Part shown: positions 31,735 through 39,314 of the stretch, piece by piece
How the letters are laid out: each line of letters starts with the position of its first letter
How positions within the stretch are numbered: the first letter of the stretch is position 1
NCBI RefSeq assembly: GCF_025965075.1
Contig: NZ_JAOPXQ010000224.1
Span: 1-45,181, forward strand
Origin: Aeromicrobium sp.
GTDB lineage: Bacteria; Actinomycetota; Actinomycetes; Propionibacteriales; Nocardioidaceae
Length of the DNA stretch: 45,181 bases
Direction of reading: 5' to 3'
Translations under genes and position numbers: made by a program
Notes under the pieces: model-generated
The model's input: the letters and a program-made list of their open reading frames with translations, nothing else
The model's database searches: none
What the model was told of the DNA's origin: nothing

Positions 31735-32493
31735 ATGCGCAAGAACGTCCTCATCACCGGCGCGAGCTCGGGGCTCGGCGCCGGCATGGCCCGCATCCTC
31801 GCCGCGAAGGGTCACCACCTCGCACTGACCGCCCGCCGGGTCGACCGGCTCGAGGCGCTGCGCTACGAGCTGCTCGCGGCCCACCCCGACATCGAGGTCG
31901 CGGTCCACGCCCTGGACGTCAACGACCACGACGCGGTGTTCCGGGTCTTCAAGCAGGCGATCGCCGACCTCGGTGGTCTCGACCGGGTCATCGTCAATGC
32001 GGGACTCGGCAAGGGGGGCCGGATCGGCACCGGCAAGTTCCAGGCCAACAAGGAGACCGCCGAGACCAACTTCATCGCAGCGCTGGCGCAGTGCGAGGCC
32101 GCGATGGAGCACTTCTACGAGCGCAAGGCCGGTCACCTCGTCGTGATCTCCTCGATGTCGGCGATGCGCGGGATGCCGTCGTCCATGACGACGTACGCCG
32201 CAACGAAGGCCGGCATCGCGATGATCGCGGAGGGCATCCGCTCGGACCTGATCGGGCGCAAGGGTGTCGACATCAAGGTCACGACGCTCTACCCCGGTTA
32301 CATCGCCTCGGAAATGAACGAGGGAGTCCAGCAGGAGACCCGGATGATGGTGGACACCGAGACCGGCTGCCGGGCGCTGGTGAAGAAGATCGAGGCCGAG
32401 GTCGTCGACGCCGCCGTGCCGTCCTGGCCGTGGGCGCCGATCGGCCAGGTCATGAAGCACGCGCCGCTCGGCATCGTCCGCCGCATGGTCTGA
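31735..32493 (+). CDS. Short-chain dehydrogenase/reductase
   Basis: SDR of 252 residues: cofactor loop TGASSGLGAGMARIL, Arg pair in ALTARRVDRLEAL (NADP preference inferred), NAG in VIVNAGLGKGG, Ser in VVISSMSAMRG and the catalytic YAATK. The C-terminal half (TTLYPGYIASEMNEG, then APLGIVRRMV) resembles enzymes annotated as YdfG- or DltE-like. ATG 31735 follows the upstream stop by one base. The two SDRs are probably co-expressed under the 30910 operator. The 21-bp repeat array begins 13 bases after the stop. Confidence 0.93.
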   Translation: MRKNVLITGASSGLGAGMARILAAKGHHLALTARRVDRLEALRYELLAAHPDIEVAVHALDVNDHDAVFRVFKQAIADLGGLDRVIVNAGLGKGGRIGTGKFQANKETAETNFIAALAQCEAAMEHFYERKAGHLVVISSMSAMRGMPSSMTTYAATKAGIAMIAEGIRSDLIGRKGVDIKVTTLYPGYIASEMNEGVQQETRMMVDTETGCRALVKKIEAEVVDAAVPSWPWAPIGQVMKHAPLGIVRRMV

Positions 32494-32505
32494 CCCCCAC
32501 CCCTG

Positions 32506-32650
32506 GTGACGCGTGGGTTGCGCCCAGTGACGCGTGGGTTAGGGACAGTGACGCGCGGGTTGCGCCGGGCGCAACCCACTCCCCACCGGGCGTAACCCAC
32601 TCCTCAGCGGGTGCAACCCACTCCTCAGCGGGTGCAACCCACGCGTCAGC
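32506..32650. repeat. Seven-unit 21-bp inverted repeat array, family B
   Basis: Seven units tile with no gaps: three forward (32506, 32527, 32548; model GTGACGCGTGGGTTGCGCCC) and four inverted (32567, 32588, 32609, 32630), turning at TTGCGCCGGGCGCAA. The second forward unit has AGGGAC in place of GCGCCC. In the inverted units the hexamer is ACGCGT in one and AGGAGT (or AGGGGA-like) in the others. Transcribed, the array folds into a long hairpin. The last unit carries the stop codon of the gene at 32646. Confidence 0.95.
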
Positions 32651-33821
32651 GGGGGAGGTCGATGCGCAGGAAGCGGGGGCGGTAGAGGAACGGGTTGTCG
32701 TCGATCTTGCCGACGTCGGTGTTGTTCTGGCTGAACGAGACGACGACGGTGCCCTGCTTGGGCAGCAGGTCGGGGTGCGCCAGCGGCATGTAGCGCAGCG
32801 TCCCGGTCTCCTGGTCGGACGGGATCTTCGCGACGACGGGGCCGGCGACGAACGGTCCCGTGGGTCCCGGTGACGACCACACCACGAGGTCCGAGCCGAG
32901 GAACTCGTCGCGCTTGCTGACGGCATACCACCGGCCGCGCTGCTCGAAGACGCTGAGCGTCTGGGAGACGCCGCCCTGGGCCGGGATCAGCGTCGCCGCC
33001 CGGGCCGCCTGGGACTGCCAGGTGCTCCCGTCCCAGAAGCGCCAGCGCCTCGGGTCGAGGATGTCGTCGGGGCGGACCCGGGCCACCTCCAGGGAGAAGC
33101 CGAAGACGAGGTCCTCGCCGGGGGTCGCAGTGCCGTAGACGTACACCCAGCCGTCCTCGACCGTCGTCGCCGCACCCCACGTCGTCCGACCGGGATCCTC
33201 CGAGTCCGGGCCGATGTCCTTGACCTGCAGCAGCTGCGGGGTCTCGCCGCGGCGGACGATGAACAGGGCGATCGCCGGGCCGAGGTTCTCGAAGGCGGCG
33301 GCACCGTCGGGCTGGGCGGCCCCGCGCACCCGCTGTGACGCGACCCCGACGAGGTCGTAGCCCTTCTTCTCGACCTTTGCGATCGACATCGGCCAGTATC
33401 CGACCCCGTCGTCACGGTCGGGGATGAGGGCGCCGTGATCGGCCGGCAGCACGATGTCGGCACAGCGGTCGGTGAACACCAGCATCGAGTTGCGGACGAA
33501 CCGCTGCCCCGCGAACGAGGCCGCTCGAAGCGTGTCGCCGAAGACCCACAGGCGCCGGCCGTCCTGCAGCGTGACATCGGCACCGACGTCCGCGCCCTGG
33601 AAGCCGGCGTCCCCGCGCAGCTTGGAAGTCAGCGTGTTGAGATCGCCCACCGAGGTCAGCGGGGTGATCGGCAGGCACTGCGTCTCGGAGGCCCGCGGGA
33701 CGTCGGCGACCGACGGATCCCGGGGCGGGGACGCGAGCGAGATCGCGGTGAACATCACCGCCGCGGCGGGCAAGGTCACGAGCGCGACGCGCCACCGCCA
33801 CGGCACGCGCTGGATGCTCAT
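32646..33821 (-). CDS. Secreted protein with DUF4185-like beta-propeller
   Basis: Protein of about 391 residues. An N-terminal signal or anchor (RWRVALVTLPAAAVMFTAIS) is followed by an extracytoplasmic domain with DGRRLWVFGDTLRAASF, VRNSMLVFTDR, YWPMSIAKVEKKGYD, WGAATTVEDGWVYVYG and YRPRFLRIDLPR, features I recall from the DUF4185 family (five-bladed glycosidase-like propeller). No catalytic residue can be assigned. ATG 33821 is chosen over GTG 33830; the ribosome binding site is weak. Its stop lies in the family B repeat and it is divergent from the membrane protein gene. Confidence 0.8.
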   Translation of the reverse strand: MSIQRVPWRWRVALVTLPAAAVMFTAISLASPPRDPSVADVPRASETQCLPITPLTSVGDLNTLTSKLRGDAGFQGADVGADVTLQDGRRLWVFGDTLRAASFAGQRFVRNSMLVFTDRCADIVLPADHGALIPDRDDGVGYWPMSIAKVEKKGYDLVGVASQRVRGAAQPDGAAAFENLGPAIALFIVRRGETPQLLQVKDIGPDSEDPGRTTWGAATTVEDGWVYVYGTATPGEDLVFGFSLEVARVRPDDILDPRRWRFWDGSTWQSQAARAATLIPAQGGVSQTLSVFEQRGRWYAVSKRDEFLGSDLVVWSSPGPTGPFVAGPVVAKIPSDQETGTLRYMPLAHPDLLPKQGTVVVSFSQNNTDVGKIDDNPFLYRPRFLRIDLPR

Positions 33822-33859
33822 GCGGCCCACGCTTCCACACCCGCGTAGGTTCGGTGCCC

Positions 33860-34864
33860 ATGAGGGGACGCCAGCTCACCGCAGCCGTGCTGCTGGGCCT
33901 GCTGCAGCTGGTCGTCGTCGTGACGCTCGCGCTGGACGGCCCTGACGACGACACGCACGCCGCACCGGTCAGCGTCGTCGCCCCACCCGTCGTCGGCACG
34001 ACGGTCGTCGACCGGGTCAACGCCCTGCCGGGGCGACCCGTCGACGCGGTCGCGCTCTCGTCGCGGACCGTCGCGCTCGAGCGCGTCCGCACGGGACGCA
34101 GCGTCGCGGCGATCGTCGTCGACCTGCGCCGCGACACCGACACGGTGTACGTCGCGGGGGCCAACGGCACGCGGCTCAACCGGGTCGTGCGGCGCCAGAT
34201 CGCCGCGGTGGAGGCCTCGTACGGACGGACCGTGCGGGTCCGGGACCTGGTGCCGGCGCGCAGCGGCGACGGGGACCGCCGGTACGTCTACGCGCTCACC
34301 GGGCTCGGCCTGCTGGTCGGCCTGCTGTCGGCGGTCGTCATCACGTGGCACCAGGGCCCGCGGGCGCCGACGCTGGCCCGCGGCGTCCGGCGGCTCCTGG
34401 TCAACACCGCGGTGGCCGTCGTGGCCGGTGGGGTGATGGCAGCGGCGGCGGCCGGCTACTACGACGCGCCCTTCGCGCTCTGGTGGCTGGTCACCGGGCT
34501 GACGGTGCTGGCCGGCGCGACGACGATGCTGGCGCTCGAGAGCCTGTTCGGGGTCTACGGCATCGGCGTCGCGACGACCGTGCTGGTCCTGGCGGCAGCC
34601 CCGCTGGTGACCCTGGTGCACCCGCTTCTCCTCCCCGAGCCGTGGGCCTCGATCACGCCGTGGATGCCGCACGGGGCGGCGTTGATCGCCGGGACGAACG
34701 TGGCGTACTTCGGTGGCGAGCAGCTGCTCCGCCCCGTGCTGGTGCTGGTCGTGTGGTCGGCCATCTCGGTCATGACGAACGTCGTCGCCCGCCGTGAGCT
34801 CCAGCGGGACGCCGCCACCACCCCGACCACGCCCACCGCTGACGGGTCACTTCCTACCCACTGA
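33860..34864 (+). CDS. Multi-pass membrane protein (ABC-2/YhgE-like)
   Basis: Protein of 334 residues. The first membrane helix (LTAAVLLGLLQLVVVVTLAL) is followed by an extracytoplasmic stretch (about 28-135) rich in Val, Arg and Asp, then five more helices (from about 136 to 310) and a short Thr/Pro-rich tail. The layout of one helix, external domain, five helices resembles the half of YhgE/Pip or ABC-2 type export permeases, but no partner ATPase is near. ATG 33860 or GTG 33854 could start it. The 3' end overlaps the converging regulator gene by 18 bases. Confidence 0.7.
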   Translation: MRGRQLTAAVLLGLLQLVVVVTLALDGPDDDTHAAPVSVVAPPVVGTTVVDRVNALPGRPVDAVALSSRTVALERVRTGRSVAAIVVDLRRDTDTVYVAGANGTRLNRVVRRQIAAVEASYGRTVRVRDLVPARSGDGDRRYVYALTGLGLLVGLLSAVVITWHQGPRAPTLARGVRRLLVNTAVAVVAGGVMAAAAAGYYDAPFALWWLVTGLTVLAGATTMLALESLFGVYGIGVATTVLVLAAAPLVTLVHPLLLPEPWASITPWMPHGAALIAGTNVAYFGGEQLLRPVLVLVVWSAISVMTNVVARRELQRDAATTPTTPTADGSLPTH

Positions 34865-34872
34865 CGGGTCAC
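34839..34872. repeat. 12-bp direct repeat carrying two converging stop codons
   Basis: CTGACGGGTCAC occurs at 34839-34850 and 34861-34872. The TCA of the first copy (34847-34849) is the stop of the regulator gene on the minus strand; the TGA of the second (34862-34864) is the stop of the membrane protein gene. The two genes thus overlap by 18 bases within the repeat. Confidence 0.8.
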
Positions 34873-36145
34873 CGGTCGCCGGCGTGACGGCATTGCGCCA
34901 GCGGCTGACGACCGGGGCGCTGGACCCCATGAGGACCGCGGCGCGGTCGACCGGCTCGACGAGCGTCGCCCGCACGTCGGGGGCGATGCGATAGGGGCGG
35001 TGGCCGATGACGGACCCCATGACCTTGCGGAGGCGGGACACCTCGGCACGTACGGTCACGGTCCGGGCCGGGTCCCCGAACAGGTCCTCCGCCAGCTCGG
35101 ACGCCGACCGGCCCCGGGGGTGGAGCAGAAGGGCCAGCAGGATCTCGCCGTGCCGGGGCGAGAGGTCGTGGGTCCACCGGACCCCCGCGGCGTACAGCGT
35201 GACGGTCGGGGCGCCGGCCGACAGGTCCAACGTGACCTCGGTCGGGAATTCCGCCGCGTTGTCGTCGACGAGCCGCAGCAGCCAGCCGCCCGGAAGCGGC
35301 TCGGACGAGACGAGGCCGAAGCCGGCGACCCAGGCGTCCCCGCCGATGAAGCCCGCCGGCAGGGCGACCCGGTCCGGTGGCACGAATCCCGTGGCGGCGG
35401 CCGTCGTGCCCTCCGCCGACACGACCAGCGCGCGGCCGCCGAGGCGGGCCAGGACCGGGGCCGCGATCGACCGCAGGGCCTGCAGGCGCTCCTGCGCCGC
35501 CGACCGGATCTCGAGCTCGGCCAGGCGGGCGGCGAGGGTCACCATCGACAACGTGCCGGCGTGCACCGTGTGCGCCGGCCCGCTCAGGTCGACGACGCCC
35601 AGGACGCGCCCGGTCGCCGGGTCGCGCAGCGGTGCGGCGGCGCACGTCCATGGTGTGTGCGACTCGGCGAAGTGCTCGGCGGCATGGATGTGCACCGGCG
35701 CCTCGGTCACCAGGGTCGTGCCGATCGCGTTGGTCCCGACGTTGCCCTCGGTCCACGCCGACCCGCCGACGAAGCCCAGCCGGTCGGCGTGCCGCAGCAC
35801 CCCGGGCTGGCCCTCGCGCCACAGGACCCGGCCCTCGGTGTCGGCCACGACCATGAGCTGTCCCGTCGCCTCGCACGCTGGGAGCAGGTGCTGCCGCAGC
35901 AGCGGCATCAGCGGACGGAGCCCGCTGACCTCGCGCCGGCGGAGCAGCTCGTCACTGGCCAGCGGGGCGATCTCGGGTGCCCCGGCCGGGCTCATGCCCT
36001 GCGCGCGCATGCGCCGCCACGAGGCCCGGATCACCGAGCGGATCGGGCCCGAGGGGCGCTGGTCCTCCAGCACGGCCTCCCGGGTCGCGTGGGTCGCCCG
36101 GGTCCGGTCGTTCCCGTCGTACGGGGCCTGTCGGTCGGCGGACAT
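34847..36145 (-). CDS. GAF-domain transcriptional regulator (AcoR/MimR-like without AAA)
   Basis: Regulator of 432 residues. An N-terminal region (RSVIRASWRRMRAQGMSPAG) and GAF domain (about 75-210; FVGGSAWTEGNVGTNAIGTT, AEHFAESHTPWTCAAAPLRD, GVVDLSG) match the sensor part of AcoR-type activators. There is no AAA domain; the C-terminus has a winged-helix unit with LSPRHGEILLALLLHPRGRS and RTVTVRAEVSRLRKVMG, so it works on ordinary sigma-70 promoters. The family in actinomycetes often controls adjacent monooxygenases. It is divergent from the flavin monooxygenase gene, over half-sites at 36168-36196, and probably activates it. Confidence 0.88.
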   Translation of the reverse strand: MSADRQAPYDGNDRTRATHATREAVLEDQRPSGPIRSVIRASWRRMRAQGMSPAGAPEIAPLASDELLRRREVSGLRPLMPLLRQHLLPACEATGQLMVVADTEGRVLWREGQPGVLRHADRLGFVGGSAWTEGNVGTNAIGTTLVTEAPVHIHAAEHFAESHTPWTCAAAPLRDPATGRVLGVVDLSGPAHTVHAGTLSMVTLAARLAELEIRSAAQERLQALRSIAAPVLARLGGRALVVSAEGTTAAATGFVPPDRVALPAGFIGGDAWVAGFGLVSSEPLPGGWLLRLVDDNAAEFPTEVTLDLSAGAPTVTLYAAGVRWTHDLSPRHGEILLALLLHPRGRSASELAEDLFGDPARTVTVRAEVSRLRKVMGSVIGHRPYRIAPDVRATLVEPVDRAAVLMGSSAPVVSRWRNAVTPATGDPSVGRK

Positions 36146-36167
36146 GTCTCATCGTGCGGGCGCCGCG

Positions 36168-36196
36168 GTTGCGGTCCCGTTGCAACCTCCTGCAAC
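36168..36196. promoter_or_regulatory. Array of GTTGC/GCAAC half-sites
   Basis: GTTGC at 36168 and 36179 (11 bp apart) and GCAAC at 36182 and 36192 (10 bp apart) form an inverted set; GTTGCA (36179-36184) and TGCAAC (36191-36196) are perfect 6-bp arms with 6 bp between. It lies between the GAF regulator and the flavin monooxygenase genes, one helical turn spacing suggests a regulator site. Confidence 0.65.
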
Positions 36197-36261
36197 TCTG
36201 TCGCCGCCCGGACAGGTGCGATGTGCTGTGGATCACACCCGAGGAACGGAGAGAGTCGACC

Positions 36262-38079
36262 ATGACTCAGACCATCGAGCGCGGAACCGCCGCGCGTACC
36301 CCGCAGGAGCGGGTCGACCACTGGCTCGCGACCTTCGAGCACGCGCTGGCGGCCCGAGACGTCGAGGCCGCGGCGGCGTTGTTCGCGATCGACAGCTATT
36401 GGCGCGACCTCGTCGCGTTCACGTGGAACATCGCCACGGTCGAGGGTCGGGACGGCGTGGCCGACCTGCTCGGCGAGCGGCTCGCCGACACCGATCCGAC
36501 GCGGTTCGTGACGACCGAGACGCCGACCGAGGCCGACGGCGTCACCGAGGCGTGGATCGAGTTCGAGACCGCGACCGGCCGGGCCAAGGGGCACCTGCGC
36601 CTCAAGGGTGACGAGGCGTGGACCCTCTTGACGAGCCTGCGCGAGCTCAAGGGCCACGAGGAGAACCTCGGCGAGCGGCGTCCGCAGGGCGTCAGCCACG
36701 AGCTGTCCAAGGGGCGCTCGTCATGGAAGGAGGAGCGCGCCGCCGAGCAGGCCGACCTGGGCTACGGCACCCAGCCGTACGTCGTCGTGATCGGCGGTGG
36801 GCAGGGCGGCATCGCCCTCGGCGCGCGACTGCGTCAGCTGGGCGTGCCGGCGCTGGTCATCGACCGTCACGACCGGCCGGGTGACCAGTGGCGCTCGCGC
36901 TACAAGAGCCTGTGTCTGCACGACCCGGTCTGGTACGACCACCTGCCCTACCTGCCGTTCCCCAAGAACTGGCCGGTGTTCGCGCCGAAGGACAAGATCG
37001 GGGACTGGCTCGAGATGTACACCCGGGTCATGGAGGTGCCGTACTGGTCGCGCTCGACGGTCCGCGGGGCGACGTACGACGAGGCCGCCGGGGCCTGGAG
37101 CGTCACGGTCGACCGGGACGGCGAGTCGGTCGAGCTCCGGCCGACGCAGCTCGTGTTCGCGACCGGGATGTCGGGCAAGCCCAACCTGCCCGAGCTGCCC
37201 GGCATGGACGTGTTCAAGGGTGAGCAGCAGCACTCGAGCCAGCACCCGGGCCCCGAGGCGTACGCCGGCAAGAAGGTCGTCGTCATCGGGTCCAACAACT
37301 CGGCCTTCGACATCTGCGGCGCGCTGTGGGAGAACGACGCCGACGTGACGATGGTGCAGCGCTCGTCGACGCACATCGTGAAGTCCGCGTCGCTGATGGA
37401 CATCGGCCTGGGTGACCTCTACTCCGAGCGGGCCGTCGAGTCGGGGGTCACGACCGACAAGGCCGACATGATCTTCGCGTCGCTGCCCTACCGGATCATG
37501 CACGAGTTCCAGATCCCGCTCTACCAGCAGATGGCCGAGCGGGACCGCGACTTCTACGAGCGACTCGAGGCGGCGGGCTTCGACCACGACTGGGGGGACG
37601 ACGGGTCGGGCCTGTTCATGAAGTACCTGCGCCGCGGCTCGGGCTACTACATCGACGTCGGCGCCGCCGAGCTCGTCGCCGACGGGGAGGTCAAGCTCGC
37701 GCACGGCCAGGTCGACCACCTCACCGAGACCTCGGTCGTGCTCGCGGACGGCACGGAGCTCGAGGCGGACCTCGTGGTCTACGCGACGGGCTACGGCTCG
37801 ATGAACGGCTGGATCGCCGACGTCATCGACCAGGAGACCGCCGACCGGGTCGGCAAGTGCTGGGGGCTCGGCTCGGACACGACCAAGGACCCCGGTCCGT
37901 GGGAGGGCGAGCAGCGCAACATGTGGAAGCCGACGCAGGTCGACAACCTGTGGATGCACGGTGGCAACCTGCACCAGTCACGGCACTACTCGCTCTACCT
38001 CGCGCTGCAGCTCAAGGCGCGCTACGAGGGCATCCCGACCCCGGTCTACGCCCAGCAGGAGGTCCACCACCTCTCCTGA
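36262..38079 (+). CDS. Flavin-containing monooxygenase with N-terminal NTF2-like domain
   Basis: Fusion of 605 residues. An NTF2/SnoaL-like domain (about 10-135; RVDHWLATFEHALAARDVEA) precedes a flavin monooxygenase (about 170-605). The FAD motif is VVVIGGGQGGIALGARLRQL, NADPH is bound by KKVVVIGSNNSAFDICGAL, and ATGMSGKPNLPELPGMDVFK and LVVYATGYG are further family marks. It inserts one oxygen from O2 into an unknown organic substrate. ATG 36262 is preceded by GGAGAGAG. The divergent GAF regulator probably controls it. Architecture NTF2-FMO is known in actinobacteria; the N-terminal domain may shape the active site or oligomer. Confidence 0.94.
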   Translation: MTQTIERGTAARTPQERVDHWLATFEHALAARDVEAAAALFAIDSYWRDLVAFTWNIATVEGRDGVADLLGERLADTDPTRFVTTETPTEADGVTEAWIEFETATGRAKGHLRLKGDEAWTLLTSLRELKGHEENLGERRPQGVSHELSKGRSSWKEERAAEQADLGYGTQPYVVVIGGGQGGIALGARLRQLGVPALVIDRHDRPGDQWRSRYKSLCLHDPVWYDHLPYLPFPKNWPVFAPKDKIGDWLEMYTRVMEVPYWSRSTVRGATYDEAAGAWSVTVDRDGESVELRPTQLVFATGMSGKPNLPELPGMDVFKGEQQHSSQHPGPEAYAGKKVVVIGSNNSAFDICGALWENDADVTMVQRSSTHIVKSASLMDIGLGDLYSERAVESGVTTDKADMIFASLPYRIMHEFQIPLYQQMAERDRDFYERLEAAGFDHDWGDDGSGLFMKYLRRGSGYYIDVGAAELVADGEVKLAHGQVDHLTETSVVLADGTELEADLVVYATGYGSMNGWIADVIDQETADRVGKCWGLGSDTTKDPGPWEGEQRNMWKPTQVDNLWMHGGNLHQSRHYSLYLALQLKARYEGIPTPVYAQQEVHHLS

Positions 38080-38101
38080 CCTCCGCCAGGCCCACCCCAA
38101 G

Positions 38102-38192
38102 GTGACGCGTGGGTTGCACCCGGTGAGGAGTGGGTTGCGCCCGGTGACGCGCGCACTACGTCGCTCCTCACCGGGCGCAACCCACGCGTCAC
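38102..38192. repeat. Second family B 21-bp repeat array
   Basis: Forward units at 38102 (ACGCGT variant) and 38123 (AGGAGT variant) are full length, the third (38144) diverges after GTGACGCGCG; a degenerate inverted unit ends in CTCCTCAC and a full inverted unit covers 38172-38192. The same 21-bp model as at 32506-32650 applies. It lies between the stops of converging genes. Confidence 0.9.
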
Positions 38193-38204
38193 CGGGGTGG
38201 GGGG

Positions 38205-39314
38205 TCAGGTGAGGAGGGTGCGGGCGAGGGTGCCGACCTGGTCGGACTCGACGAGGAAGCCGTCGTGGCCGTGGGGCGACGCGACGACCGCGAGCGGTCC
38301 GGAGCCGGCGATCCCGTCCGCGAGCTCCTGCTGCTGGTGCAGGGGATAGAGCCGGTCCGAGTCGATCCCCGCGACGACGGTACGCGCGGTGATCCGCGCG
38401 AGCGCCGCCTCGGTGCCGCCGCGGCCGCGGCCCACGTCGTGACTGCTCATCGCCGCGCTCAGCACGACGTACGAGTTGGCGTCGAAGCGGCTCACGAGCT
38501 TGGCCCCGTGGTGCTGGAGGTAGGACTCGACGGCGTAGCGGCCGTCGGGCTGGACCTCGCGGCCGAAGCGCTCGGCCAGCTCGGCCTCGCTGCGATAGCT
38601 GATGTGCGCGATGCGCCGGGCCAGGTCGAGTCCGGCCGACGGCCCCTGCGGCCCGTCGTAGTAGTCCCCGTCGAAGTACGCCGCGTCGGCGCGGATCGCG
38701 TCGATCTGCGTCGAGGTCAGCGCGATCTGGTCGGCGGACGCCGCCGCACAGGTCGCGAGCAGGAACAGCCGCTCGACCCGCTCGGGGTGCTCGATCGCCC
38801 ACTCCAGGGCCCGCATCCCGCCCGCCGACCCGCCGATGACGCCCCGCCAGCGGGGGATGCCGAGCCGGTCGGCCAGGGCGACCTCGGCACGCACCTGGTC
38901 GCGCACCGTCAGGGCCGGGAACGACCCGCCCCACTGGAAGCCGTCGGGGTCCCGCGATGCGGGTCCGGTCGACCCCTGGCACCCGCCGAGGATGTTGGCG
39001 GCCACGACGAAGAACCGGTCGGTGTCGATCGCCTCGCCCGGCCCGACGACCGCGTCCCACCAGCCCGGCGTCGGGTGACCCGGCCCGGCCGGTCCGTGCA
39101 CGTGGCTGTCACCCGTCAGGGCGTGCAGGACCAGGACCGCGTTGGAGCCGTCGTACGTCCCCCAGGTCTCGTAGGCCAGCTGGACGTCCGGCAGCGTCAC
39201 GCCCGACTCGAGGACCAGGTCGCCGAGGTCCTCGAACGCCCGGGAACCGGCAGGATCCCCCTCCCGCCACGCACCCGTGACGAGAGAGGGATCGATGGCC
39301 GCGCTGAGTGTCAC
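38205..39314 (-). CDS. metX: Homoserine O-acetyltransferase
   Basis: Enzyme of 369 residues, alpha/beta-hydrolase fold, making O-acetylhomoserine from homoserine and acetyl-CoA in methionine synthesis. The nucleophilic Ser is in GGSAGGMRALEWAIEHPERV (usual form GGSMGGMQALEW), the oxyanion block is VLVLHALTGDSHVHGP, and the catalytic His is in SPHGHDGFLVES near the C-terminus. The start overlaps the metY stop by four bases (ATGA at 39311-39314), so it is the second gene of metY-metX. Confidence 0.96.
   Translation of the reverse strand: MTLSAAIDPSLVTGAWREGDPAGSRAFEDLGDLVLESGVTLPDVQLAYETWGTYDGSNAVLVLHALTGDSHVHGPAGPGHPTPGWWDAVVGPGEAIDTDRFFVVAANILGGCQGSTGPASRDPDGFQWGGSFPALTVRDQVRAEVALADRLGIPRWRGVIGGSAGGMRALEWAIEHPERVERLFLLATCAAASADQIALTSTQIDAIRADAAYFDGDYYDGPQGPSAGLDLARRIAHISYRSEAELAERFGREVQPDGRYAVESYLQHHGAKLVSRFDANSYVVLSAAMSSHDVGRGRGGTEAALARITARTVVAGIDSDRLYPLHQQQELADGIAGSGPLAVVASPHGHDGFLVESDQVGTLARTLLT

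Follow-up and report, generated by a model that had tools for sequence, protein, structure and literature searches.

Two inverted repeat arrays between converging genes

The window, by which we mean the whole 45,181-nucleotide stretch of Aeromicrobium sp. DNA analysed here, contains two arrays of short repeats, each situated between the ends of converging genes. We use the term array for an inverted set of short units, denote the two unit orientations by > and <, and refer to the unit dialect of the window arrays as D1. The features are as follows.

31735-32493, + strand: SDR-family oxidoreductase gene (NF006099 above cut-off), neighbour of array 1
32505-32567, + strand: array 1 left arm, > units at 32505-32525, 32526-32546 and 32547-32567
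32567-32650, - strand: array 1 right arm, < units at 32567-32587, 32588-32608, 32609-32629 and 32630-32650
32646-33821, - strand: DUF4185 protein gene, converging neighbour of array 1
36262-38079, + strand: flavin-binding monooxygenase-like protein gene, converging neighbour of array 2
38101-38151, + strand: array 2 left arm, full > units at 38101-38121 and 38122-38142 and a cut-off > unit at 38143-38151
38152-38163, no strand: array 2 centre, 12 bp
38164-38193, - strand: array 2 right arm, a cut-off < unit at 38164-38172 and a full < unit at 38173-38193
38205-39314, - strand: MetX homoserine O-acetyltransferase gene, converging neighbour of array 2

Array 1 (32505-32650) consists of seven 21-bp units in the order >>><<<<, which agrees with the first-pass annotation of three units in one orientation and four in the other. 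That annotation also described the units as tiling without spacers; this holds for most of the array, except that units three and four share one base. The left arm has the same sense as the + strand gene that ends at 32493, and the stop codon of the - strand gene at 32646-33821 is the TGA of the outermost < unit. The D1 unit is GGTGACGCGTGGGTTGCGCCC, in which the GACGCG position is alternatively GAGGAG. The two alternative cores that had been reported, ACGCGT and AGGAGT, both occur, and the units of array 1 are 0-3 letters away from the degenerate consensus. Array 2 (38101-38193) is made of the same unit, as had been claimed for a second array near 38102, but it is less regular than that description implied, with cut-off units in both arms and a 12-bp centre. 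Our gene calls agree with the earlier placement of both arrays between converging genes.

When a 19-mer of the unit was searched at ≤3 mismatches, the window yielded seven matches against 0.08 expected, and none of 100 shuffles reached seven. RNA folding of arrays 1 and 2 was stronger than that of 200 dinucleotide shuffles (z = -5.2 and -10.5, respectively). Across positions 32300-38400, Rfam 15 models gave no match at gathering score, and a scan for intrinsic terminators (a hairpin followed by a T run) found none inside either array. The lone terminator-like site in this interval, at 32708-32721, is outside both arrays, with 1.1 such sites expected. We rejected a coding repeat as an explanation because the arrays are located between the stop codons of two called genes; the open frames that cross them are only overlapping mechanical ORFs.

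Dispersal, placement and dialects of the arrays

The window's own genome (G000; 3.15 Mb in 286 contigs, 92% complete) contains 63 D1 matches at ≤3 mismatches, compared with 2 for the reversed pattern, and D1 is present at 15 sites on 14 contigs. Searching with the exact core pattern detected D1 in 5 of 49 Aeromicrobium genomes (G000, G008, G033, G034, and G064). Units repeat every 21 bp in G000, G034, and G064 and every 22 bp in G008 and G033. Among the 58 relatives searched, six more genomes each have a single match with 2 mismatches. These counts bear out the first-pass proposal of a dispersed, palindromic, REP/BIME-like family of actinobacteria, and the 15 sites in G000 mean that the two window arrays are not its only copies.

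Beyond Aeromicrobium, D1 matches are nearly all single among the matches listed. Two D1-like matches are located 52 bp apart in Galactobacter caseinivorans (L149), which belongs to another actinobacterial family. Eighteen viral contigs have one unit match each, and three plasmid records have weak matches (29-31%) to the nuclease described below. We set aside spread by plasmids or phages, for which these weak nuclease matches and single unit matches were the support.

We surveyed the placement of arrays in loci fetched around them from seven genomes, a set of 122 arrays with at least two units. The order > then < was not violated once among units with ≤3 mismatches, although one-armed arrays, which make up 33 of 98 clusters in the arm-comparison set, satisfy this rule trivially. 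Weak matches (4-5 mismatches), which are outside the 122-array count, break the order in a few arrays (L264, L265, and L237). Of 210 outer arms, 160 lie ≤60 nt from a gene end, with gene and unit running in the same sense; in 29 of these 160, the gene stops at the TGA of the unit itself. For another 36 outer arms, neither the start nor the end of a called gene falls within 60 nt, and the remaining 14 are next to something else. Among gene pairs called by our own script, some of whose non-converging cases may be calling errors, the 117 pairs that bear an array comprise 73 converging, 22 ++, 21 --, and 1 diverging, whereas 859 array-free pairs from the same regions comprise 94 converging, 302 ++, 310 --, and 153 diverging (Fisher P = 3e-33 for the converging excess). 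The arrays thus lie mainly at converging gene ends, in the survey as in the window.

In other species, the 3' ends of metX and of the SDR gene carry arrays of like build composed of different units. The unit of the D2 dialect, GASGAGTCRCGYACGG, has 86 matches in G029, 75 in G012, 1 in G064, and 2 in G032. The unit of the D3 dialect, GCGAGAGACTTTGTT, has 40 matches in G004, 15 in G032, 11 in G002, and 9 in G030. Neither unit was found in the remaining genomes of the 49 Aeromicrobium. The arrays of G029 and G004 have the same order and gene-end context as those of D1. At the first window junction, G000 and G064 carry D1 arrays, G029 and G012 carry D2 arrays, and G025 and G027 are array-free, their two stop codons being just 4 and 5 bp apart. 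The single comparison of a junction with empty sites revealed no recognisable target duplication. Among all arrays collected, 19 groups have a flanking gene in common between genomes, 9 of them of mixed dialect, under a rule by which one shared gene on one side sufficed and one group was joined through the nuclease gene itself. The many arrays at shared junctions could alternatively be old, immobile arrays that change in place.

Unit likeness is 0.857 between neighbours within an arm, 0.843 between other units of the arm, and 0.794 between different loci. When opposed units across the arms were compared with other cross-arm pairs, the difference was +0.020 counting from the outside (P = 3e-4) and -0.006 counting from the centre (P = 0.40). 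This mirror test being weak from the outside and absent from the centre, we rejected hairpin pairing as a conserved feature. Where an array has two arms, their lengths tend to rise together (rho = 0.35, P = 0.004, n = 65).

A predicted nuclease gene flanked by arms of matching dialect

In six genomes, which represent three dialects, a gene encoding a protein of about 310 amino acids (here called the nuclease, after its predicted fold) is positioned between the two arms of one array. In G000, this gene is found at C157:32000-32920, outside the window, and its arms are D1. A genus-wide search detected the nuclease in 21 of 49 genomes, at 26 loci. We scored arms at ≤5 mismatches to each locus' own unit and found both of them, with at least one > unit upstream and at least one < unit downstream, at 22 of the 23 nuclease loci of three close groups. 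At the 23rd locus (G008, L270 4305-9284), other genes, including an ISL3 transposase, part the nuclease gene from the right arm; the transposase reaches to that arm. The right arm starts at or near the nuclease stop codon, and several loci have this stop codon within the arm itself. Upstream of the nuclease start, a TGTGGA motif is present within the left arm at all 23 loci (L434-L451 and L455-L459), at a distance of -49 to -52 in 21 loci and of -37 and -39 in the other two; it may be a promoter, an operator, or a cut site.

Across the family and the genus, inverted flanks beyond all 100 shuffles were detected in 47 of 56 nuclease rows; two places are listed twice among these rows, so the count of distinct places is 45 of 54. 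The corresponding numbers are 16 of 587 for control genes and 16 of 30 for nuclease loci phylum-wide. Detectable inverted flanks were absent at 9 of the 56 nuclease loci from the family and genus and at 14 of the 30 from the phylum. Homologues were identified in 219 of 294 Nocardioidaceae genomes at E 1e-20 with a distant family member as the query, and in 130 of 396 genomes of the phylum by a profile search at 1e-15. Seven genomes of 5-6 Mb from one genus (G352, G388, G410, G464, G674, G690, and G705) have at least five nuclease matches each.

An AlphaFold2 model of the protein, built from 48 sequences, had a pLDDT of 89.5 and a pTM of 0.87. Residues 195-297 of the model superpose on the catalytic domain of I-Bth0305I (3r3p; Z 10.2, rmsd 2.5 over 93 residues) and on Vsr (1cw0; Z 8.5). 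Residues 2-190 superpose on AbiEi from Streptococcus agalactiae (6y8q_A; Z 9.2), with an rmsd of 8.7 over 174 residues, so this match holds domain by domain at best. Foldseek ranked AbiEi (6y8q_A) first (E 2.6e-5) and returned I-Bth0305I at just E 1.6. At the profile level, PADLOC AbiEi models matched down to E 4e-17, and the match to I-Bth0305I (3r3p) had an E value of 7e-4. At E ≤0.01, 28 of 48 family members matched DUF559 and 35 matched MTES_1575, mostly faintly, and the Pfam matches of the six proteins tested first were below the curated cut-offs. By model and profiles, the linked protein joins an AbiEi-antitoxin fold to a nuclease fold of the Vsr/I-Bth0305I kind, and it is a probable DNA-cutting enzyme. 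In the available text of earlier studies, MTES_1575 is described as a Vsr-family REase domain (PMC3710099), and EDxHD homing endonucleases are described as combining a nuclease with DNA-reading parts and having long targets (PMC3943268). AbiEi is likewise described there as binding two 23-bp inverted repeats, and Rv2827c four (PMC7319586); binding of this kind would suit a reader of 21-22-bp inverted units.

All five D1 genomes hold a nuclease with D1 arms, and none of the other loci found has a D1-armed nuclease. The single D1-like match of G023 is an arm of that genome's own nuclease. A nuclease with D2 arms occurs in G029 and G012, and one with D3 arms in G004, G032, and G002. In G030 (84% complete), the 9 D3 matches come without any nuclease match. 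Two nucleases, at sites A and B, occur together in five genomes, each with a dialect of its own. Across 23 nucleases, the more alike two nucleases are, the more alike are their units (Mantel r = 0.72, P = 1e-4, with unit consensus read off by eye and shared ancestry uncorrected), and the right 12 nt of the unit alone gave r = 0.68. Mean unit identity is 0.50 between the two nucleases of one genome (n = 5) and 0.53 for random pairs of different type; across genomes, it is 0.73 within nuclease type B and 0.71 within type A. The dialect follows the lineage of the nuclease, not the host.

Using nuclease flanks to predict dispersed copies succeeded in three of six tries, all on partial sequence. 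For site A of G029, the prediction recovered five to six units arrayed at L397 10385-10541 as well as a lone unit at L405, with 0 matches for the reversed control. In 400 kb of G020 chosen regardless of arrays, a >><<< array is located between converging genes (L498), and its units supply both stop codons. Three more single-unit matches in G020 fall within genes; here the reversed pattern produced 10 matches at 3 mismatches. The nuclease of G009 is more distant, and 400 kb of this genome contain three >< hairpins, each about 67 bp long, between converging genes (L511, L519, and L524); the reversed control gave 6 matches at 6 mismatches. Since the reversed controls of G020 and G009 gave matches, only paired or arrayed matches were counted. 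The predicted dialects without a match were those of site B in G034 (139 kb), site B in G064 (138 kb), and site A in G012 (7.9 kb). In G061, the unit at metX, which was observed first, equals the arms of the G061 nuclease.

Downstream of metX, G028, G005, and G065 (L322, L323, and L324) have single hairpins of other sequence, which resemble the one-hairpin type of distant nucleases. G008, a D1 genome, has repeats of a further kind, GGGTCAGTACTGACGG, downstream of metX (L307).

Possible working of the system and its relation to known repeat families

The arrays are dispersed, fixed in orientation, and biased toward gene ends; they occur in dialects, share their dialect with the arms of a nuclease gene, and diverge together with the nuclease. 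From this association we infer binding, cutting, and movement, and we consider it fairly probable that the arrays are non-autonomous dispersed copies of the recognition repeat of their cognate AbiEi-nuclease, spread and homogenised by the enzyme. In the working that we propose, the AbiEi-like part would read the 21-22-bp unit, a pair of the protein would occupy inverted units, and the Vsr/homing-endonuclease-like part would nick or cut at the units or at a similar target. Repair templated by another array would plant new arrays and overwrite old ones, so the dialect would be uniform per genome and would change with the enzyme. Tandem slippage would lengthen the arms. Insertions would persist mainly between converging genes, where the TGA of the unit may supply a stop to the incoming gene; survival where no promoter lies, together with closure of the frame by the TGA, would account for the orientation and the converging context. 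The predicted transcript can fold into a long hairpin and may also end both transcripts.

With confidence that is about evenly balanced, we go further and propose a selfish system unrelated to RAYT, in which an AbiEi reader joined to a Vsr/EDxHD nuclease spreads and rewrites species-specific arrays at converging gene ends through homing-like cut-and-copy, and which is old, inherited vertically at fixed sites, and present across much of the Actinomycetota. That the repeat family differs by species and matches the nuclease-flanking repeats points to an undescribed selfish repeat system in actinobacteria.

The arrays might instead serve the host as bidirectional terminators or 3'-end roadblocks, either as hairpins or bound by protein, with the nuclease gene a passenger that uses such signals at its borders. 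The converging context, the beginning of arrays directly after stop codons, the strong hairpins, and the correlated arm lengths are all consistent with this explanation. However, a hairpin requires no shared sequence, yet units from different loci resemble one another (0.79) and, from one species to another, change all together, and opposed units are barely more alike than other cross-arm pairs (+0.020 from the outside and -0.006 from the centre). The arrays also contain no U-tract terminator, two species are array-free at the first window junction, and the two dialects of one genome follow two nucleases. We therefore regard a terminator role as unlikely. The presence of arrays at junctions is patchy among close species, and arrays are mostly at gene ends rather than promoters (160 of 210 arms), both of which argue against host-used operators or landmarks of the AbiEi-nuclease that serve autoregulation, a role in the chromosome or in repair, or self-marking that wards off the nuclease and are kept by selection for binding, not by movement. 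We find this explanation quite improbable, even though PMC7319586 describes AbiEi proteins as binding to inverted repeats in the promoter of their own gene, and the left arm and TGTGGA have a fixed place before the nuclease start at 23 of 23 loci.

Inverted ends around a gene and dispersed gene-free copies would also be expected of MITE-type elements mobilised by a DDE transposase or by an enzyme outside our searches. Against this, the recurring gene between the arms is the AbiEi-nuclease wherever an armed one was found, and the single junction that we compared with empty sites showed no recognisable target duplication; we give this explanation very little weight. Scarcely credible, in our view, is the idea that the units are signals for short-range uptake or recombination of DNA in species-specific dialects, similar to DNA uptake sequences: the dialects and the inverted pairs at gene ends would fit such signals, but the density is low (15 sites in the 3.1 Mb of the window's own genome) and the link to a nuclease gene bearing the same arms is tight.

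The first-pass annotation had suggested dispersal by a RAYT-type enzyme. We rejected a RAYT/Y1 transposase as the mover because Y1_Tnp (PF01797) had no match at E ≤0.001 in any of the 49 genus genomes, compared with 5 of 14 control genomes; the linked enzyme is the AbiEi-Vsr-type nuclease. What stands of the original reading is the dispersed REP/BIME-like family at converging ends, without the RAYT enzyme. The resemblance to REPIN-RAYT systems is otherwise considerable: short palindromic repeats lie outside genes as inverted pairs, scattered across the genome, the enzyme gene is flanked by its own repeat class (here with another enzyme, at 22 of 23 loci), several enzymes per genome each have their own class, and repeat and enzyme co-diverge. 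In the available text of PMC3116915 and PMC8266576, RAYTs are described as single-copy enzyme genes with their own repeat class, several per genome, that co-diverge with it. Unlike REPIN-RAYT systems, the arrays here are accompanied by an AbiEi-Vsr-like nuclease instead of a Y1/HUH transposase (49 genomes), and their arms are tandem 21-22-bp units with a strong bias to converging gene ends. Because the transposase is absent and the enzyme is of another fold, the arrays are not a member of the REPIN-RAYT class.

On the structural model, the C-terminal 100 residues share a predicted fold with Vsr and with EDxHD homing endonucleases (I-Bth0305I), and the probable nuclease would likewise be paired with a DNA-reading part, as the available text of PMC3943268 describes for the latter. 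In contrast to those enzymes, the gene here is free-standing and has an AbiEi-type reader, flanking inverted arrays, and many gene-free copies. Residues 2-190 share fold and profile with AbiEi antitoxins (type IV AbiE and Rv2827c), and the inverted units are comparable to the pairs of 23-bp inverted repeats that AbiEi binds according to the available text of PMC7319586. Here, unlike in AbiEi antitoxins, this part is predicted to be fused to a nuclease, and the repeats are dispersed over the genome.

In the open-access literature, we found no report that joins AbiEi, DUF559, or MTES_1575 proteins with dispersed repeats, none that pairs DUF559 with inverted repeats in actinobacteria, and none that pairs AbiEi with DUF559. 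MIRU of mycobacteria are small actinobacterial repeats linked to stop codons, but they differ from the arrays described here in unit size, sequence, inverted build, and nuclease link. We regard the system as new in its parts, though it would be less so if another enzyme proves to be the mover. If our reading is true, it would represent a second, independent solution of the type "enzyme plus dispersed palindrome," and REPIN-RAYT would be one case of a general way of life. It would also give a role to a very common but unassigned actinobacterial family (DUF559/MTES_1575 with an AbiEi-like front) and explain species-specific repeats at converging gene ends. Furthermore, it would provide natural pairs of enzyme and site that differ in specificity from one close relative to the next, and the dialect pairs would allow in vitro tests.

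Individual arrays of G034 differ from the common build. At L254 4592-5073, 17 > units stand against 6 < units, and most of the > units are nearly identical; this lopsidedness is recent growth of one arm only. At L250 4517-6002, a carbon-nitrogen hydrolase (nitrilase-like) gene is positioned between >>>>>>>>< and <<<<<<<<<. The G000 locus with the same flanking genes (L235) has a contiguous >><< array without the hydrolase gene, so the arms may also bracket cargo genes.
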